Shown piece after piece: positions 17,875 to 41,387 of a DNA stretch of 42,773 nt. The notes under the pieces are model-generated. The model made no database searches. It was not told the DNA's origin and saw nothing but the letters and a program-made list of their open reading frames with translations. Where the stretch lies: positions 1-42,773 of the IMG/VR virus record IMGVR_UViG_3300011013_000028; one strand, 5' to 3'. Positions within the stretch are counted from its first letter, which is position 1, and every line of letters starts with the position of its first letter. Origin of the DNA: a virus. Made by a program: the position numbers and the translations under genes.

Positions 17875-18807
17875 TTATTTTAGTGTCATAGGAAGCACTA
17901 ATGGTAGTGTGCCTTTATCAAGTACTACCCCACAAGATATAACTGGTTTTTTAAATCGTTTACCATAAGCCATTGCATAAGATGTTCTATCAATACCACA
18001 TCCTACTTGCATGCCAAATATCTTAAAGTTAGAACCTACAGCAAACTCAACATAAGATTGTGTATGTGTATGTCCTTGTACTTGTGACTGTAACTCATTC
18101 TTCATTTTGGTTCTAGCAGTTCCACCTTCACCATGATTAAAGTTGATACCAAACAACTCAATTTCTTCTAGGAATTCCCATCCTGGAGTACCTAGTACTT
18201 CATCATATGCTCTTACCCATTTCTTAGATAAACCTGCAGATTGAGCTTTTCTATAAGCCATTCTGTCATGATTACCAATAAGTACTGTTGCTTCAGGAAA
18301 CACTTTGTACCATTTGGATATCTTATCAATAGCTCTTTCTAACTCTTCTCCTGCTGAATAACCATCAGGATCTGACTCATGATATGATGAAAAGTGATTA
18401 TCAATAACATCACCAATGAATATTACTGTACCACAATCAAATCTTTCTTGTTGAAATCTACAAAACTCTAAATAACCCTCTAATGTGAATGGTTCATGTA
18501 GATCTCCTATTACTAATATATTATCAGGATTACCTTCATAAGGCTTAGGAAGCCCTTTAAGCAACTCTTTTTTAGTTTCTACCTTAGCAATTGCTCTTTG
18601 ATTTTTATACTCTAAGAACTCTTTATATAAAGGATCAGAGTCTGCTGGCTTTTCTCCTGTACTAATTATAACTTTGTCAGTTAATTCTGACTTAATTTCT
18701 TCTATAGTTGACAAAGGTACATTAAATTTAGATGCTAACTTTGCCTTACCCCACTTCTTATATCCAGGGTTGTTAATTAAAAACGCTTTAATATTTTCTT
18801 TCTTCAT
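17875..18807 (-). CDS. HTH-metallophosphoesterase (calcineurin-like)
   Basis: 310 residues. The N-terminal ~45 residues look like a helix-turn-helix (KWGKAKLASKFNVPLSTIEEI). A complete calcineurin-like metallophosphoesterase follows, with GDLH (101-104), GDVIDNH (132-138), GNHD (178-181), the HGE block (225-227) and GHTH (245-248), so all metal ligands appear present. The reaction would be phosphoester hydrolysis using two divalent metals; the substrate (DNA end, nucleotide or protein phosphate) is not evident. The HTH suggests DNA binding. It is the first gene after the promoter at 18828-18859, with a ~20-nt leader, and is co-transcribed with ring genes, which is an unusual place for an enzyme. 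Family call is firm; role is open. Confidence 0.88.
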   Translation of the reverse strand: MKKENIKAFLINNPGYKKWGKAKLASKFNVPLSTIEEIKSELTDKVIISTGEKPADSDPLYKEFLEYKNQRAIAKVETKKELLKGLPKPYEGNPDNILVIGDLHEPFTLEGYLEFCRFQQERFDCGTVIFIGDVIDNHFSSYHESDPDGYSAGEELERAIDKISKWYKVFPEATVLIGNHDRMAYRKAQSAGLSKKWVRAYDEVLGTPGWEFLEEIELFGINFNHGEGGTARTKMKNELQSQVQGHTHTQSYVEFAVGSNFKIFGMQVGCGIDRTSYAMAYGKRFKKPVISCGVVLDKGTLPLVLPMTLK

Positions 18808-29757: not shown

Positions 29758-31209
29758 TTAGAGTTGTGTTGAATAAATTAATTCAGCACATGACATAGGG
29801 TTCTCTATAATCACACTCTGGTTACACATACAGTGTAATTCATAACCATCAACAGCAGAGGCAGCGCCTTTACTGAATGACATGTTAGGCCCAAGTGGAG
29901 ATGTAGATCCCGCAATATGCCACATTAACTCTTTTCTTCCTTTTGGATATACTCTTCTAATATTTCGTTTCCCTTTATGAGTACCGAAGTTTAAGATTGT
30001 ATATCTGTATGATTCTACAGGACCACCATCTGGGTGTTGCAATCTGTTAGAAACAGGATTGTCATACTCAGGTAAATGGATAAGAGTAAACTTGATACCC
30101 TGAGGTCCCATGAATTCTCTGTATTGTCCTTGGAATCCTAGATTTTGTCCAGAACCAGTGATTCTTTTAGAATCTAATGGTTGGAATCTAGCTGAATGGT
30201 TTTCTAAAGCTCTGTGGAACTGAACCATACCTCTCTCACCTGTCAAGGCCACAAAGTGTCTTTGATCTTCTGGTAAGATATTAATAGATAAGTTCAATAG
30301 CACATCCTCTAACCAGTCAATTGAAAATTGAGTGTAAGAGAATTTATAAGCTGGAGAAATTTGCTGACGAATACCAGCACCTTCAATGATAGGGAAACCT
30401 GTAGCTCCTGACATGTTGTACATATCAGATGGCCCTTTGTTAGATTCCGCATATAAAAGGTTTCTGTTCTTCTCCTTGTACCATTGGCACATGAATTCCC
30501 ACTCTGCATACTGTGTCCAGATTTTGGTAGAGTTGTTAGACTTAGGGTCTAGCATCTCAATAACCAATGGTCTGTTGTGCATGTTACCAGGCACTGTATA
30601 CGTCTTTCTCAAAGTAGAGAAGTGGTTACGCATTTTGAATGGAGAAGTGAAGTTGGTTTCACCTGCAGTCTTAGAAAGAGTACGCTCTTGTGGAGAGTAT
30701 TCTTTAGACAATTGTCTACCAGCATCTAATAAAGTTACTGGAACAAATAATGTTGGATCACTTGTCATTAGGCTAACTCGGTAAACCCAGTCAGTACCAT
30801 TTGAAATTGGTTCATCCATAACACGAACTGCAAAGCGTCTGTCGTCAAATACTAGCTTGTCTGTATATGCAAAGTATTTCTCTGGCATGATGATTTCAAA
30901 CACAGTGTTATTAACACCTGGTCTGGCAGCATCTGTAGCATTAAATCCTACAATTGGAATAGCTTTTTCATCATCGCCTTTAAGATACCACTCAAAAGCA
31001 GCATCACTTGGTAATTCTTCTTCAGCTCCCATCATAGAGAATAAAGCATCCATACCTGCGTGAGAATACATTCCAAATACCCTAGACATAATATTAGAAA
31101 CAAGCGTAGGCTCCTCATTAAATACAGTACCTAAGTGGTTATCTGTAGTAAGCCCTGACCAACTTTTTTGTTCGTAAACTTGTAAAGTATTAATCGATTG
31201 ATTAGGCAT
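29758..31209 (-). CDS. Major capsid protein (crAss-like HK97 fold)
   Basis: 483 residues. It lacks a signal peptide and begins MPNQSINTLQVYEQKSW; signatures of crAss-like capsid proteins include the FGMYSHAGMDALFSM helix, ALTGERGMVQFHRALENHS and the C-terminal segment ELIYSTQL. Position after the portal and scaffold-like genes supports the call. The protein would form the icosahedral shell. It is preceded by a 19-nt A/T-rich gap without its own promoter, so it is expressed from the promoter at 32450-32480 together with the scaffold-like gene. Confidence 0.87.
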   Translation of the reverse strand: MPNQSINTLQVYEQKSWSGLTTDNHLGTVFNEEPTLVSNIMSRVFGMYSHAGMDALFSMMGAEEELPSDAAFEWYLKGDDEKAIPIVGFNATDAARPGVNNTVFEIIMPEKYFAYTDKLVFDDRRFAVRVMDEPISNGTDWVYRVSLMTSDPTLFVPVTLLDAGRQLSKEYSPQERTLSKTAGETNFTSPFKMRNHFSTLRKTYTVPGNMHNRPLVIEMLDPKSNNSTKIWTQYAEWEFMCQWYKEKNRNLLYAESNKGPSDMYNMSGATGFPIIEGAGIRQQISPAYKFSYTQFSIDWLEDVLLNLSINILPEDQRHFVALTGERGMVQFHRALENHSARFQPLDSKRITGSGQNLGFQGQYREFMGPQGIKFTLIHLPEYDNPVSNRLQHPDGGPVESYRYTILNFGTHKGKRNIRRVYPKGRKELMWHIAGSTSPLGPNMSFSKGAASAVDGYELHCMCNQSVIIENPMSCAELIYSTQL

Positions 31210-32519: not shown

Positions 32520-34889
32520 CTATTTTTTGTCATTCTTTTTCTTCTTGGCTTCAGCTTTTTTCTGCTTAAGCTCTTTCTCTTTTAAATCTTTCTGTTGTTT
32601 TAGCTTATCTCTTTCTAAGTTTAATTTATCCGCATTAAAATCAATTTGTGCTTTTAACTTTGCAATCTCTAATTGATCTGGAATTCCATTATCATTTGAA
32701 TCTTGATCTTCTTGAAATTTAAAAGAATTAATTTCAGCAACTGTAATCTTAGTTTGGTTATCTGAATCAATCTTATAATAATCTTTCTGAAGTTCTTTTT
32801 CAGCCATTGCATTTTCTTGAGCTGCAATTTTCTCGCCTGCTTCAAGTTCTGCTTGTTGTGCTTGTTCAGTTCTGGCTTGCATGTCTTGCTCCATTGTCAT
32901 AAGCTTAGACTTAATATCAGATAAGGACTCTGATGCATACACATCTGCAATAGATGACAACATAATCTTTTCATTCTGCATAGCAGCTTGTGTCATATCT
33001 TTAAGCATTTGCAATGCCTCAACATCTTTAGAAGCGTCTGATACAAATACTCCAAACTCAGAATTGTTAAACTCATTACCATCTACGCTAAAAAATACAG
33101 AGGCTAAATCATCAGTAACATACTGAAGTTTTTTACTTCCATCTTTCCACGCTTCTTTAGCTGCTTCAACTAAACACTCTAATACTCTTTTCTTAGTCCA
33201 GTTATGCACTTGAAACCATTTCTCTGTAATATGTGAAGACTGTACTGTTGCATGTCTCACACCCCCTACAGTTTCAGAAGCAGATACTGCCCCCATTCTT
33301 TGATCAGTAACTCCTGATAGTTCTTGTAGTTTAGTCTCAATAAATTCAAGTAATTGAACATGGCCTTGTATAGCTGCCCCTGTTTCTAGATCTAGGGACT
33401 TATTCTGGTTGGAGATATTACCAGCGAGTTTTCCAGTAGATTGACCTTTAACTCCTTCATTGAATGAATCAACAAATCCAAACTTCATTGCTGATGCGTA
33501 GTATAACCATTTCTCAATTTCCCATCCTTCAGGAATAAGAGCAAGGTCAATAAGCGCAATCTTACCTTGGTTGGCTGCAATCAATAGCTCTGTTCTATAC
33601 CACATTGTAATATACAGATAGATCCAAGGAACTAATCTGTCCATAAGTGATACTGACTGAGCATTAGTAGCATTATATACAGTTCCAATATATCCAGACT
33701 TACAAGCTGAAATATTATCCATTCTTCTGAATTGCATTTTCTTAGGTCTGATATTAACATAAATATCTGCACCAATCTTAGTTCCTTCCCAATACTCGTT
33801 GATCCAGAACCATTTTATCTTTTCACCTGATAATGGCTTGTACTTCTCATCAACTACTGTACTTTGTTCAACACCATTCTCATCAGTAAATGTCAGCTCT
33901 CCTACCTTCTTTTTTGATTTCCACGTAACATAACACACTCGAATATTACCATCAGAATCATATATAGAAGAGTCATCTAATAGGGGAGAAGGGGAATCAG
34001 AAGTACCTATTACAGCTCTGTCAGGAAGTATAAAATTGCTTTGATTGATGGTATGGATGTTTGACTCTTCATCTTCTATTTTGTCAATTTGTGCAGGAGT
34101 TAAATCCTCATAGAAGTTGTCCACTATCTCTGAGATAGATAGCCACGTTTCTTCTACTATTACTTCTGCTTCATCCAGTATATCCAAGTTGTGAGGTAGG
34201 AGAGCATAAATCTCTACTGGGTTGCATCTCTTTACTAAAGGTTCGTTTGCAATAACTTCTACTTTGTAAACTTCCTCTCCTGCAAGTAATGCATCCTCCC
34301 AGCCTTTTTGGAATTTTCTATTTAAATCTTGTTGCTTCTTCAGGTAGTTAAGAGATTGTGTTGCCACATGTTCTCTCATGTCCTGATAATTATATTTATA
34401 ATAATTTAAAATATCCTCTGGCTCTTGGCCTGACTCTTGTAACTCTTGTGCCTCTTCTGGAAGTATTGAAGATAAGACCTTAAGCTTAACTGCTTCCATG
34501 ATCTCTTCTTTCCTTTGTTTTTCTTTTCTAGTAATAGCCTCTGGGTTAACAGCTCTTACTACATAGGAGAAGTGGCGCTTAGACTCTTCACCAAATAATA
34601 AATCAAAGATTGGTGTAGCAATAGGATAGTATTGCATGTTTGCTGGAAAATCAAAACCTTCATCTGCAATACCAAATGGATTACATACATACTCTAAGTC
34701 TTGTTTATCAAACTTACCATTATAAAGATTATAATTTCTAATCTTCTTATATCTAGGTGATCTCCTTGTATAGTCATATAGGGTAGTATAATGCAATGCT
34801 GCATCTATACAGTTCTCTCCCCAGTTCTGAGTTTTCTTTCTCAGAGAGACTTTTTGTTTAGGAAAATTTAAAAATGTGCTTGAGGCCAT
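32520..34889 (-). CDS. Portal protein
   Basis: 789 residues. Located directly downstream of the large terminase, as in crAss-like phages. The N-terminal ~280 residues are alpha/beta, the middle contains the region IYLYITMWYRTELLIAAN and DQRMGAVSASETVGGVRHAT, the latter typical of portal proteins. The last ~140 residues are a charged coiled coil (QARTEQAQQAELEAGEKIA) ending in a lysine-rich tail (KAEAKKKKNDKK), consistent with the C-terminal barrel or DNA-facing end. It forms the dodecameric ring for DNA entry and exit. Expressed from the promoter at 34906-34937, 16 nt upstream. Confidence 0.87.
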   Translation of the reverse strand: MASSTFLNFPKQKVSLRKKTQNWGENCIDAALHYTTLYDYTRRSPRYKKIRNYNLYNGKFDKQDLEYVCNPFGIADEGFDFPANMQYYPIATPIFDLLFGEESKRHFSYVVRAVNPEAITRKEKQRKEEIMEAVKLKVLSSILPEEAQELQESGQEPEDILNYYKYNYQDMREHVATQSLNYLKKQQDLNRKFQKGWEDALLAGEEVYKVEVIANEPLVKRCNPVEIYALLPHNLDILDEAEVIVEETWLSISEIVDNFYEDLTPAQIDKIEDEESNIHTINQSNFILPDRAVIGTSDSPSPLLDDSSIYDSDGNIRVCYVTWKSKKKVGELTFTDENGVEQSTVVDEKYKPLSGEKIKWFWINEYWEGTKIGADIYVNIRPKKMQFRRMDNISACKSGYIGTVYNATNAQSVSLMDRLVPWIYLYITMWYRTELLIAANQGKIALIDLALIPEGWEIEKWLYYASAMKFGFVDSFNEGVKGQSTGKLAGNISNQNKSLDLETGAAIQGHVQLLEFIETKLQELSGVTDQRMGAVSASETVGGVRHATVQSSHITEKWFQVHNWTKKRVLECLVEAAKEAWKDGSKKLQYVTDDLASVFFSVDGNEFNNSEFGVFVSDASKDVEALQMLKDMTQAAMQNEKIMLSSIADVYASESLSDIKSKLMTMEQDMQARTEQAQQAELEAGEKIAAQENAMAEKELQKDYYKIDSDNQTKITVAEINSFKFQEDQDSNDNGIPDQLEIAKLKAQIDFNADKLNLERDKLKQQKDLKEKELKQKKAEAKKKKNDKK

Positions 34890-34968: not shown

Positions 34969-37260
34969 CTAAAAGAATTTTTTCTTCTTTCTTAAGCCTT
35001 TATTAAAAAAGTCAGAATTACCAATATAAGTGTTTTTTGCTTTGGATTTTTCTCTTACTTCAATTTTTCTAGTCTCTTGTATAAAGTACATCACCATCAT
35101 AAAAGCCATGACCCTATCAAAGTTACCATCAGTATTATAAGCTGCTAACTCTTTAATAAGAGGCAAACATCTTATCTCATGCAAATTAAGCTTCTCTGAG
35201 CCCTCTTCGTCATTATAAGGCTCTAGGAGCCATGTTTTAATTAATTCTTCACCATAACGCTTTAAAGACTTATTCATGTGCATACCATAGTTCCTGTTAA
35301 CCCTAGTAGTTTGTAGAACGTCTTTAATGATCTCTGGTTGTTCTTGAAGCATATAAACACACTTCTTCTTCTCAAAGTAATCGTATATACCCTTTCTCTC
35401 ATTCTCATAAAGAAGTCTAGCATTATAATATTTCAATAACTTCCTAACCTCTTCGTAATATTTATTGGCTGTCTCTGGTCTACCTGTATACTCTGCTACC
35501 ACTTGTTTACTAAGCTTGTCGTAAACAATAGTCGAACCTAAGGAACCTGTACCTGCATCATCATGATCATAAGGGTCACAGCCTGCTATATATCTACCAT
35601 ACATTACATCCCCATACTCATCTTCATAAGGATGTTGGTATATAACTACTGCCCCTTCTACTCCACGTTTTCTATCTTCTTCTTTTAGAGGAAAGTGTTT
35701 AATAGGTCTTGCAGTAGGGTCTAGCTTCCATTCTACTTGGTCTGTATCAGGATTACCAACCAGCTTACCTATGTACTCTGCGTTAGCATACTTCTCATTA
35801 CCATCAACTTCAGCTTCACGTTCTTTTAATAAGGCTATAGGGAATATGTTACCCACTTTACTTAAGAACATCTCTGAAGGCACTAAAGGGTAGTTAAGCA
35901 TCTCAAGGTCAATAGCAGATGTATCTTTAGATCTCATCTTCTTCTCTCTGATCTTCTCCTTATAGGCTAATGCTCCTTCTATATCAGTATTACCATTCTC
36001 ATCCTTAAACTGGTTAAGTCCATATATAGCTGGTACAAACCATCCTGTTTTCCTTTGGTCATTCTCCCAAGGGTTATCAAAAGCTAAGAAATCAAACCCT
36101 TCTGGATCATAGAACATTACTTGTGATTCTACAATTTTTTCCATATTACCACCAGTACCTAGATACACGCAAGAACCAAACTGATTCTCACCCTCCATCA
36201 TACATGCTGTATTAGAACCATGAATAGTTAGGATATTAGGACATAACCCAACCTCTTCTACTACAATTACTGCATGACGACCACCAGCACCAGCTTCAGG
36301 ATTCTCTGTTGTAAAGGTAACATGTTTTAAATTGGACTTAGTACCCTCTTTAATCCATTGTCCCCCAACCTTTTTATCATACCAATGCTGCCATAGGTTT
36401 TTACCATTATTAGGCTTTAGGGAGCCTGTCATCTCCTTATAGAATGGAGAAGGGGTAAACTCTGAACTATCTCCCCAGGAACCTGGTATATTGTCAATAG
36501 CTTCTTTTACCTTTGCTAATAAATCTGAAGACTTAGAAGAGAGGGCTGCACCCACCAATAACTCATTCTTAGCTGGATTATTTATTGATTCTTGCGTGTA
36601 ATATCTTGCCCCATCAAACAATATTTCATATAGGATTATTCCAACTCCTACCATGAAACTTTTGCCAAACCCACGAGCCCCTAACATAAATAGGTTTGTA
36701 GCTTGGTTTTCCCATAAAGCCTGTCCATAAGGTTTAGAGTGTGTCTTTCGTAGATATTCCCTAGCTGTAATATAAGTTTTTACTTCACCTTTGGAATTAT
36801 AAGCTGACTTGTCTATAGTAACTGAATCATCTGTTTCTGCCTCTATAACACTTCTATGACAAGTAAATTCATCGTCATCTTCAAATCCAGAGAAACCCCT
36901 AGCTTCTGCCCAGTTATAAAAGAACTCCCACTCAATATCCCTTAGGAAGGGTCTCATTCTTTTCTTAGGGGCTGTCTTTGGTGCATCAGGTGGGTTGTGT
37001 AGGATTGTACCAAAGTTTACATAAAAGTAAAGGTTGGGAGTCATCCAACGCCAACCTTCTTTATGCTTTTTAACATGTGCACTAAAGTCTCTGTCTTCTA
37101 CCTCAATATCAGCTGCTGTAGAATCAAGTGACCAAAGCCCCTCTATACATCGTTGTTTATGCTTACGCCAATAGGCAACATAATCATTAGACTCTGGATG
37201 ATAGGACTTTACTTCCTTTATTAGGAAATTGTTTCTGTTATTTATTCTTATAAAACTCAT
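34969..37260 (-). CDS. terL: Terminase large subunit
   Basis: 763 residues. Walker A is GARGFGKS (residues 194-201) and the Walker B strand with acidic residues is AVIVVEEVG (330-338). The nuclease domain begins near GCDPYDHDD (560-568), with the first metal-binding aspartate at 562. The N-terminal ~180 residues are an extension seen in crAss-like terminases. It packages phage DNA into the prohead by ATP hydrolysis and cuts the concatemer. It starts directly after the upstream gene (1-nt overlap) and is expressed from the operon promoter at 40798. No small terminase gene is recognised. Confidence 0.93.
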   Translation of the reverse strand: MSFIRINNRNNFLIKEVKSYHPESNDYVAYWRKHKQRCIEGLWSLDSTAADIEVEDRDFSAHVKKHKEGWRWMTPNLYFYVNFGTILHNPPDAPKTAPKKRMRPFLRDIEWEFFYNWAEARGFSGFEDDDEFTCHRSVIEAETDDSVTIDKSAYNSKGEVKTYITAREYLRKTHSKPYGQALWENQATNLFMLGARGFGKSFMVGVGIILYEILFDGARYYTQESINNPAKNELLVGAALSSKSSDLLAKVKEAIDNIPGSWGDSSEFTPSPFYKEMTGSLKPNNGKNLWQHWYDKKVGGQWIKEGTKSNLKHVTFTTENPEAGAGGRHAVIVVEEVGLCPNILTIHGSNTACMMEGENQFGSCVYLGTGGNMEKIVESQVMFYDPEGFDFLAFDNPWENDQRKTGWFVPAIYGLNQFKDENGNTDIEGALAYKEKIREKKMRSKDTSAIDLEMLNYPLVPSEMFLSKVGNIFPIALLKEREAEVDGNEKYANAEYIGKLVGNPDTDQVEWKLDPTARPIKHFPLKEEDRKRGVEGAVVIYQHPYEDEYGDVMYGRYIAGCDPYDHDDAGTGSLGSTIVYDKLSKQVVAEYTGRPETANKYYEEVRKLLKYYNARLLYENERKGIYDYFEKKKCVYMLQEQPEIIKDVLQTTRVNRNYGMHMNKSLKRYGEELIKTWLLEPYNDEEGSEKLNLHEIRCLPLIKELAAYNTDGNFDRVMAFMMVMYFIQETRKIEVREKSKAKNTYIGNSDFFNKGLRKKKKFF

Positions 37261-40879: not shown

Positions 40880-40905
40880 AAAAAGAAGGGAAACTAATCC
40901 CATTC
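40880..40905 (-). terminator. Weak terminator candidate overlapping a stop codon
   Basis: On the minus strand GGGATTAGTTTCCC forms a short 4-bp stem across the TAG stop at 40894-40896, followed by TTCTTTTTTGC. The stem is weak but the U-run is good. It lies just before the promoter at 40798-40828 and would separate the upstream small gene from the terminase operon. Confidence 0.4.
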
Positions 40906-41085
40906 TTCATTATCCTCCCATGCAGCCATTACATCTACATCGAAGCCTAAGTCCTCTATAAAGCATCTGAGGCCTTCTGGAGTGGCATCAAAGTCATCTA
41001 TGTGACCTTCATAAAGACATTCATCTTCTCCACCTCTCTCTTTAAGTATGGCGTAGCTATCACCACTTACTAATATTCTAATCAT
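40894..41085 (-). CDS. Small acidic hypothetical protein behind a structured leader
   Basis: 63 residues from ATG 41085 (MIRILVSGDSYAILKERGG); a TTG start 24 nt upstream lies in the hairpin and is not favoured. Acidic with many D and E, including DFDATPEGLRCFIEDLGF and AWEDNEEWD at the end. No family recognised. It is the only gene between the leader at about 41101-41343 and the weak terminator, so the leader may regulate it. The small acidic composition would fit an inhibitor or DNA mimic, which is a guess only. Confidence 0.6.
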   Translation of the reverse strand: MIRILVSGDSYAILKERGGEDECLYEGHIDDFDATPEGLRCFIEDLGFDVDVMAAWEDNEEWD

Positions 41086-41100
41086 TTGTTTATTATTTAT

Positions 41101-41343
41101 GGAGAGCAATATCCTCTCCCTGTTTTTTTGCTCTTATTCTTCACCAAAAGACTGCTGTAAGTTTCATACACCAGTAAACTAACCATAACCTATTTTAGTT
41201 TATTTGTTCTATCCTCTTAAAAGAGGTTTTACCTGATCCAACAATCTTCCAACTTTTATTAGGTGATTGAAGTTTTGGAATGCCCCTAGACTAATTTGCT
41301 TTAACAGTGTCTAAGGGACTAACTTCCTCAAGTAATTAAACAT
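41101..41343 (-). ncRNA. Hairpin-rich leader or ncRNA candidate
   Basis: About 245 nt without a good gene. From 5' to 3' on the minus strand: a 9-bp stem (41309-41317 with 41283-41291, one G-U pair only on this strand), a stem CCAA-AACTT/AAGTTGG with a 2-nt bulge (41270-41278 with 41249-41255), CCTCTT/AAGAGG (41221-41226 with 41213-41218), an 8-bp TAAACTAA/TTAGTTTA stem (41195-41202 with 41175-41182), and GGAGAG/CTCTCC (41114-41119 with 41101-41106) 15 nt before the ATG at 41085. A promoter at 41347-41378 would start it near 41343. It may be a 5' regulatory leader or a small RNA. No known RNA family is recognised. Confidence 0.45.
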
Positions 41344-41346
41344 ATA

Positions 41347-41378
41347 CAAAGATAATGAAAATAATTGACATATCCAAA
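41347..41378 (-). promoter_or_regulatory. Bacteroidota-type promoter of the structured leader
   Basis: Minus strand: TTTG (41375-41378), 20 nt, then TATCTTTG (41347-41354). The spacer shares GATATGTCAATTATTTT-like sequence with the promoters at 40798 and 42273. A 15-bp perfect palindrome (41373-41387) covers the -33 element. Confidence 0.7.
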
Positions 41379-41387
41379 TTATTTGGA
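41373..41387. promoter_or_regulatory. Palindromic operator candidate over the -33 box
   Basis: TCCAAATTATTTGGA is a perfect 7-bp inverted repeat around one base. It includes the -33 TTTG of the promoter at 41347-41378 and lies 7 nt before the stop of the upstream gene. Placement over a promoter element suggests repressor or activator binding; it could instead act as a hairpin with the nearby T-run on the plus strand. Confidence 0.45.

Follow-up and report, generated by a model that had tools for sequence, protein, structure and literature searches.

The locus and its predicted fold

The window, part of a crAss-like phage genome with a length of 42,773 nucleotides (42.8 kb), contains a stretch of approximately 245 nt (41101-41343) that a preliminary description had read as a hairpin-rich leader or a non-coding RNA of an unfamiliar kind. 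The question is whether this stretch specifies a structured RNA, on which strand, and whether such an RNA would serve the gene behind it or act on its own.

Genes for the large terminase (terL, 34969-37260), the portal (32520-34889) and the major head protein (29758-31209) were identified on the minus strand by matches to the PHROG families of the same names, and the portal retrieved crAss-like phages at approximately 36% identity. The RNA locus lies approximately 4 kb upstream of terL, on the same strand as these late genes. Its reported position between a promoter and a small acidic gene was confirmed: a Bacteroidota-type promoter precedes it, and the ATG (41085) of an acidic 63-codon ORF follows 15-19 nt after the RNA 3′ end on the minus strand. 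An 86-aa gene upstream yielded one short relative only in a homologue search.

Table 1. Features of the RNA locus, in window positions
Feature	Position	Strand	Elements	Remarks
Promoter	41347-41378	minus	TTTG (41378-41375), 20 nt, TATCTTTG (41354-41347)	Bacteroidota -33/-7 type
5′ hairpin P0	41283-41317	minus	CCCUUAGAC (41317-41309) / GUCUAGGGG (41291-41283)	Folding and relatives
Conserved core	41229-41278	minus	Approximately 49 nt	R1 model match 69.5 bits, E 5e-17 (R1 E-values are rough)
Hairpin P2	41213-41226	minus	CCUCUU/AAGAGG	RNAalifold, unconstrained alignment
Hairpin P3	41176-41201	minus	AAACUAA/UUAGUUU	Compensatory arms in six crAss-like members
Hairpin P4	41151-41175	minus	ACUG-GUGUAUGAAACUUACAG-CAGU	Sequence kept in L003, L004 and L007
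3′ stem S3	41104-41133	minus	GAGCAA (41133-41128) / UUGCUC (41109-41104)	A-rich and ACAGGGAGAGGA linker inside
Acidic 63-aa ORF	40894-41085	minus	ATG at 41085	Adjoins the RNA; homologue searches empty

Folding of positions 41080-41345 as the minus strand gave -63.1 kcal/mol, against -49.6 ± 4.6 for shuffled sequences (z -2.9; 1 of 200 shuffles folding as well), so that the five or more stems claimed for the region are present beyond chance. The plus strand gave a z of -1.75. Single-sequence folding thus modestly favours the minus strand; the decisive evidence for structure is comparative.

P0 is the 9-bp stem on which the choice of strand had originally been based, and it pairs completely, with one G-U, on the minus strand only. 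Its arms differ yet stay complementary in the related loci L003, L004 and L007, and the P0 arms of L004 are CCUCCAAG/CUUGGGGG against CCUCCAAG/CUUGGAGG in L003, a difference that again yields a G-U fitting the minus-strand RNA only. The core consists of an invariant ACUU (41273-41270), the stem P1 (CAAU/AUUG), an apical loop with ACCUAAUAAAAGUUGGAAG, an invariant UUGGAUCAG (41241-41233) and GGUAA; the invariant ACUU and UUGGANCAG lie unpaired on either side of P1. P4 varies little, its support being the sequence kept in L003, L004 and L007. The S3 region may pair with an upstream U-rich stretch to form a pseudoknot in the window, where an automatic pseudoknot search was not significant against 30 shuffles. 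The pseudoknot is clear in L091, L096, L121 and L156 and in L203-L205, and the automatic search exceeded all 30 shuffles in some members of groups C and E only (groups are described below); L098, L206 and L207 also exceeded 30 shuffles, with helices other than S2 and S3.

Two further elements were noted around the RNA. A perfect palindrome, CCAAATAATTTGG (41374-41386), overlaps the -33 element of the promoter, and ATTTGGATA-GTCA at this palindrome is retained in L003 and L004; it is a possible operator. On the plus strand, opposite to the nearby genes, positions 41101-41128 contain a terminator-like hairpin followed by a T run. This hairpin (GGAGAG/CUCUCC) scores as a terminator, and was set aside as absent from relatives such as L007, where S3, at the same location, is kept.

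Covariation, known families and group architecture

When 80 terL loci were searched with a profile of the region, clear relatives were identified in L007, L003, L004/L005, L009 and L033, and weaker ones in L072 and L066; TerL identity to the phages of these relatives was 46-69%. The shared letters CCTAAN{4,5}GNNGGANGNNNNTTGGANCAG were then used as a search pattern in which stem pairing was not demanded. The pattern matched more than 119 stretches of viral contigs, which is a lower bound, and 11 stretches of genome contigs, three of which (L202, L208 and L212) fall within genes and are attributed to chance. Redundancy in IMG/VR was considerable, 140 members reducing to 104 distinct ones. As the pattern was seeded by CCTAA, GGA, TTGGA and CAG, letters that are also called conserved, the argument escapes circularity only for P1, for ACUU and for the distances.

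The covariation that had been suggested as a check on the RNA proved very strong. In 40 distinct cores the four pairs of P1 were formed in 99.4% of cells, against 51.0% when the 3′ letters were shuffled and 27-62% in controls with slid partners. Doubly compensated cells numbered 81, compared with 27.6 in shuffles, and every one of the four pairs changes on both sides. ACUU, 5′ of P1, was not part of the pattern, yet it does not vary. RNAalifold, given eight crAss-like members aligned without constraints, recovered P1, CC/GG pairs inside P1, and P2. The arms of P2 show compensatory differences in eight members and S3 covaries in six; the P3 arms of six crAss-like members pair at 1.00 with their own partners and at 0.54 when crossed. 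Taken together, the P2, P3 and S3 arms pair at 0.98-1.00 within sequences against 0.48-0.65 across sequences, figures that serve as supporting evidence only because the arms were picked by eye. The second candidate core helix, an ACCU/AGGU pseudoknot, showed zero double changes and is unproven.

No Rfam family matched the window at gathering score, and permissive filters gave sub-threshold chance matches only. Ten member loci likewise had no non-tRNA match to Rfam, whose families include GOLLD, ROOL, tmRNA, 6S, riboswitches and ribozymes. ARAGORN detected no tRNA or tmRNA in the window, and only ordinary tRNAs, elsewhere on the contig, for 14 member loci. The statement that no known riboswitch or tRNA is present was therefore upheld, and text searches of the literature for this RNA found nothing. 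GOLLD and ROOL are orphan structured RNAs of phages and prophages, with pseudoknots and a function that is not known, often located near tRNA genes (PMC12286853). The locus has the characters of such orphans, a covarying structure in phage genomes and no coding frame, and it is a new family of that kind rather than a homologous member of a known one. Like GOLLD and ROOL, it is a phage-borne non-coding RNA with pseudoknots that is sometimes found beside tRNA genes, the RNAs of L009 and L033 lying right behind a tRNA array. It differs from these 600-800+ nt RNAs in its length of about 130-350 nt, its occurrence in Bacteroidota phages, the lack of any sign of multimers and the absence of an Rfam match to either.

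The members share a layout that begins with P0 and ACUU, continues with P1, whose apical loop is large and conserved, and UUGGANCAGGUAA, and closes with a 3′ part that varies among five groups. Group A, crAss-like and of the window type, has P2, P3, P4 and stem S3 around ACAGGGAGAGG. In group B, which comprises other crAss-like members (for example L019, L022, L041 and L078), the apical loop is substituted or deleted, and the 3′ part contains a pseudoknot of AAUUGAAA/UUUCAAUU with AGUGGC/GCCACU, followed by short U/C tracts. Group C (siphophage-like; L091, L096, L121, L156 and L175) has a pseudoknot in which S2 is GUAAAUUU/AAAUUUAC and the S3 pairs are GCUAGC/GCUAGC, GCUGAC/GUCAGC and GCAGAC/GUCUGC. 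Group E, found in Flavobacteriales chromosomes, has a pseudoknot of GUACAUUU/AAAUGUAC or AUACGUUU/AAACGUAU with UGCGCC/GGCGCA, or alternatively CUCUUAGUU/AACUAAGAG with GUACCCC/GGGGUAC; the distances of S2 and S3 from the core are similar in C and E. Group D, siphophage-like and the most numerous, carries a pyrimidine mirror repeat.

The mirror repeat was unexpected. It is near-perfect in all 68 of 68 pyrimidine-tract members (including L086, L089, L095, L104, L106, L147, L154, L158 and L161), lies approximately 45-120 nt behind the core, and has arms of about 18-27 nt and a spacer of 2-6 nt. Each of the 68 exceeds 20 dinucleotide shuffles. The arms vary between phages, but a change in one arm is mirrored in the other, even where G (L104) or A (L158, L186) is involved; the repeats may be a signature of H-DNA or of an RNA-DNA triplex.

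Genomic sites and spread

Viral contigs with the core number more than 100, and a few chromosomes of Flavobacteriales also have it. The carriers are uncultured Bacteroidota phages, including crAssphage relatives; the assignment of Bacteroidota hosts is drawn from promoters, matches in MAGs and relatives, and the contigs are read as environmental from these hosts and relatives, not from a record for each contig. Upstream sequence of 6 kb or more was available for 26 crAss-like terL loci, and 21 of these have the RNA, in the orientation of terL and 2-6 kb upstream of it, the weakest match being L014 at 21.7 bits. Near-complete phage genomes contain one strong match each.

A whole-genome model search of named crAss-like phages, among them crAss001, phi14:2, DAC15 and cr7_1, did not find the RNA, which is therefore dispensable for crAss-like phages in general. 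Searches of named phages by blastn with the leader, the consensus core and a tail-antisense member returned promoter-like or chance pieces only, and no cultured phage among the named genomes tested has the RNA. A match in ProJPt-Bp1 (E 0.012) was rejected as it sits in apparent coding sequence.

In Flavobacteriales MAGs the copies are intergenic. The family of one carrier MAG has the RNA in 4 of 35 genomes, with three copies in one of them. The related genomes of L251, L253 and L254 have a common downstream neighbourhood, with an HTH-bearing protein and further shared genes (a HAD-type hydrolase follows in L253 and L254); the HTH-bearing protein is also found in L250. Upstream content is variable and includes such genes as those of a type I restriction system, or a recombinase. 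The RNA of these four loci adjoins this variable stretch and precedes a conserved HTH-bearing protein (RTSW...), a site that is possibly an integration hotspot. Elsewhere in the window, a 310-aa protein (17875-18807) is 57% identical over 200 aa to a protein of the siphophage-like contig G048, a likeness between otherwise unrelated-looking phages that perhaps reflects gene exchange between phage lineages.

Of 101 members, 70 have TAnnTTTG upstream of the core, where shuffles gave 8.3, and 46 of these 70 have it 24-25 nt ahead of ACTT. The RNA itself lies 10-25 nt behind a promoter in most members. This spacing would suit a cis-acting 5′ leader, either a riboswitch or an antitermination site of the put/nut type, that controls the downstream operon. 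In the put RNA of phage HK022 and the lambda nut sites, a phage promoter is immediately followed by short RNA hairpins that have invariant parts, an arrangement shared by the new RNA; unlike put and nut, it is single copy, has a large 3′ domain, and is sometimes found without a same-direction operon downstream. A leader would also account for the location near the start of the late module in crAss-like phages, and for the ORF that begins approximately 10-50 nt after the last stem in the window, L003, L004, L009 and L033; in the window and several crAss-like relatives the ORF soon after the RNA has no promoter of its own. However, no constant same-direction gene or gene family lies behind the RNA. 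The first downstream ORFs are unrelated among the window, L003, L009, L072 and others, and mostly unrelated within group A; in L121 and L105 the RNA is antisense in a gap of approximately 400 nt between tail genes, with no same-direction gene behind it, and the host-chromosome copies have none directly behind them. In L007, L088, L097, L106 and L167 the gene that comes next is separated from the RNA by a TAnnTTTG promoter. Only one copy is present per genome although phages have many operons, and groups C and D have homologous proteins but different RNA sites, the RNA of group D lying between a holin-like gene and ninG.

Single copy, differing sites, unrelated downstream genes and own promoters favour an autonomous RNA gene. 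A stand-alone RNA thus fits better than a leader, which we consider unlikely; of the two parts of the original suggestion, the non-coding RNA is borne out by the sites and downstream genes, and the leader fits less well. In the window, the RNA and the 63-aa ORF may yet share one transcript, and a cis effect on this ORF is possible.

A homologous crAss-like protein of 121-127 aa (MKKEF..EREVFRMYVELIRPFLKGLRPREADVFAE) was found behind the RNA in five contigs (L007, L011, L033, L160 and L258), at a distance of 210-640 nt; its first 70 residues had no Pfam match.

Possible functions

The reading that we favour, and hold to be probable, is that the locus is a non-coding RNA gene of approximately 245 nt with its own host-type promoter, belonging to a new and widespread family of trans-acting phage RNAs. 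It builds on the observed minus-strand structure, conservation, promoter, single copy per near-complete genome and unrelated positions, and its weight lies on an autonomous, trans-acting, structured RNA gene, not on any particular partner. Host RNA polymerase would transcribe the RNA during infection, and the RNA would fold into P0, P1 and a 3′ S3 or pseudoknot domain. The invariant unpaired ACUU and UUGGANCAG beside P1 could then be the binding site for a partner, of host or phage origin and widespread in Bacteroidota, such as a protein or the ribosome, and the bound RNA may serve as a decoy or scaffold that aids takeover or acts against defence; what it binds and how the phage benefits are guesses. 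Thus the new phage RNA that had been proposed is supported by covariation and the lack of an Rfam match, while the term regulatory is unproven. Like phage morons, which are autonomous promoter-bearing units and typically protein-coding, the new unit has its own promoter and occupies different sites in related phages; it differs from them in encoding an RNA.

Other explanations of the locus were weighed against this one. An element of replication, either a priming RNA or an origin, in which the mirror repeat would help to unwind the DNA, would agree with the single copy per phage, the own promoter, the frequent location at module borders near replication genes and the H-DNA-type mirror repeats of 68 members. 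It is nevertheless very improbable: neither the window nor groups C and E show such a mirror repeat, chromosomal copies exist, and sites differ between related phages. An origin in particular was rejected, as two siphophage-like contigs have no turn of GC skew where the RNA lies. The AT-rich sequence and modest global z-score might have suggested a short coding region or mere chance structure, a proposal contradicted by the covariation of P1; a conserved reading frame was looked for and none was found, no frame of more than 33 codons crossing the region, and we regard this explanation as practically negligible. An anti-CRISPR RNA that imitates a Cas13b repeat, suggested by a likeness between the two, was discarded because the required second hairpin is missing from the pyrimidine-tract group. 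Separately, UUGGAUCA behind a hairpin resembles the 3′ end of 16S rRNA, mimicry being an idea only; the host genomes yielded no 16S end for comparison.

A more speculative proposal, to which we give a small chance, extends the autonomous RNA gene to a new class of mobile phage RNA genes that moves between unrelated lineages of Bacteroidota phages, crAss-like and siphophage-like, and whose RNA targets some conserved machine of the host in trans. The pyrimidine mirror repeat that one branch has in the 3′ part would form a triple helix with DNA, either as H-DNA or by the RNA copy of one arm joining the DNA duplex of its counterpart, which could tie the RNA to its own gene or stop polymerase. If true, a phage would here be making use of an RNA-DNA triplex.

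The most abundant viruses include Crassvirales and the marine phages of Bacteroidota, whose non-coding RNAs are, to our knowledge, almost undescribed. The family would be an independent case of structured RNA genes travelling between phages. With its large size, very strong covariation and compact invariant core, its partner is directly searchable by RNA pull-down. The mirror repeats form an unusual natural set in which symmetry is kept while the sequence changes.
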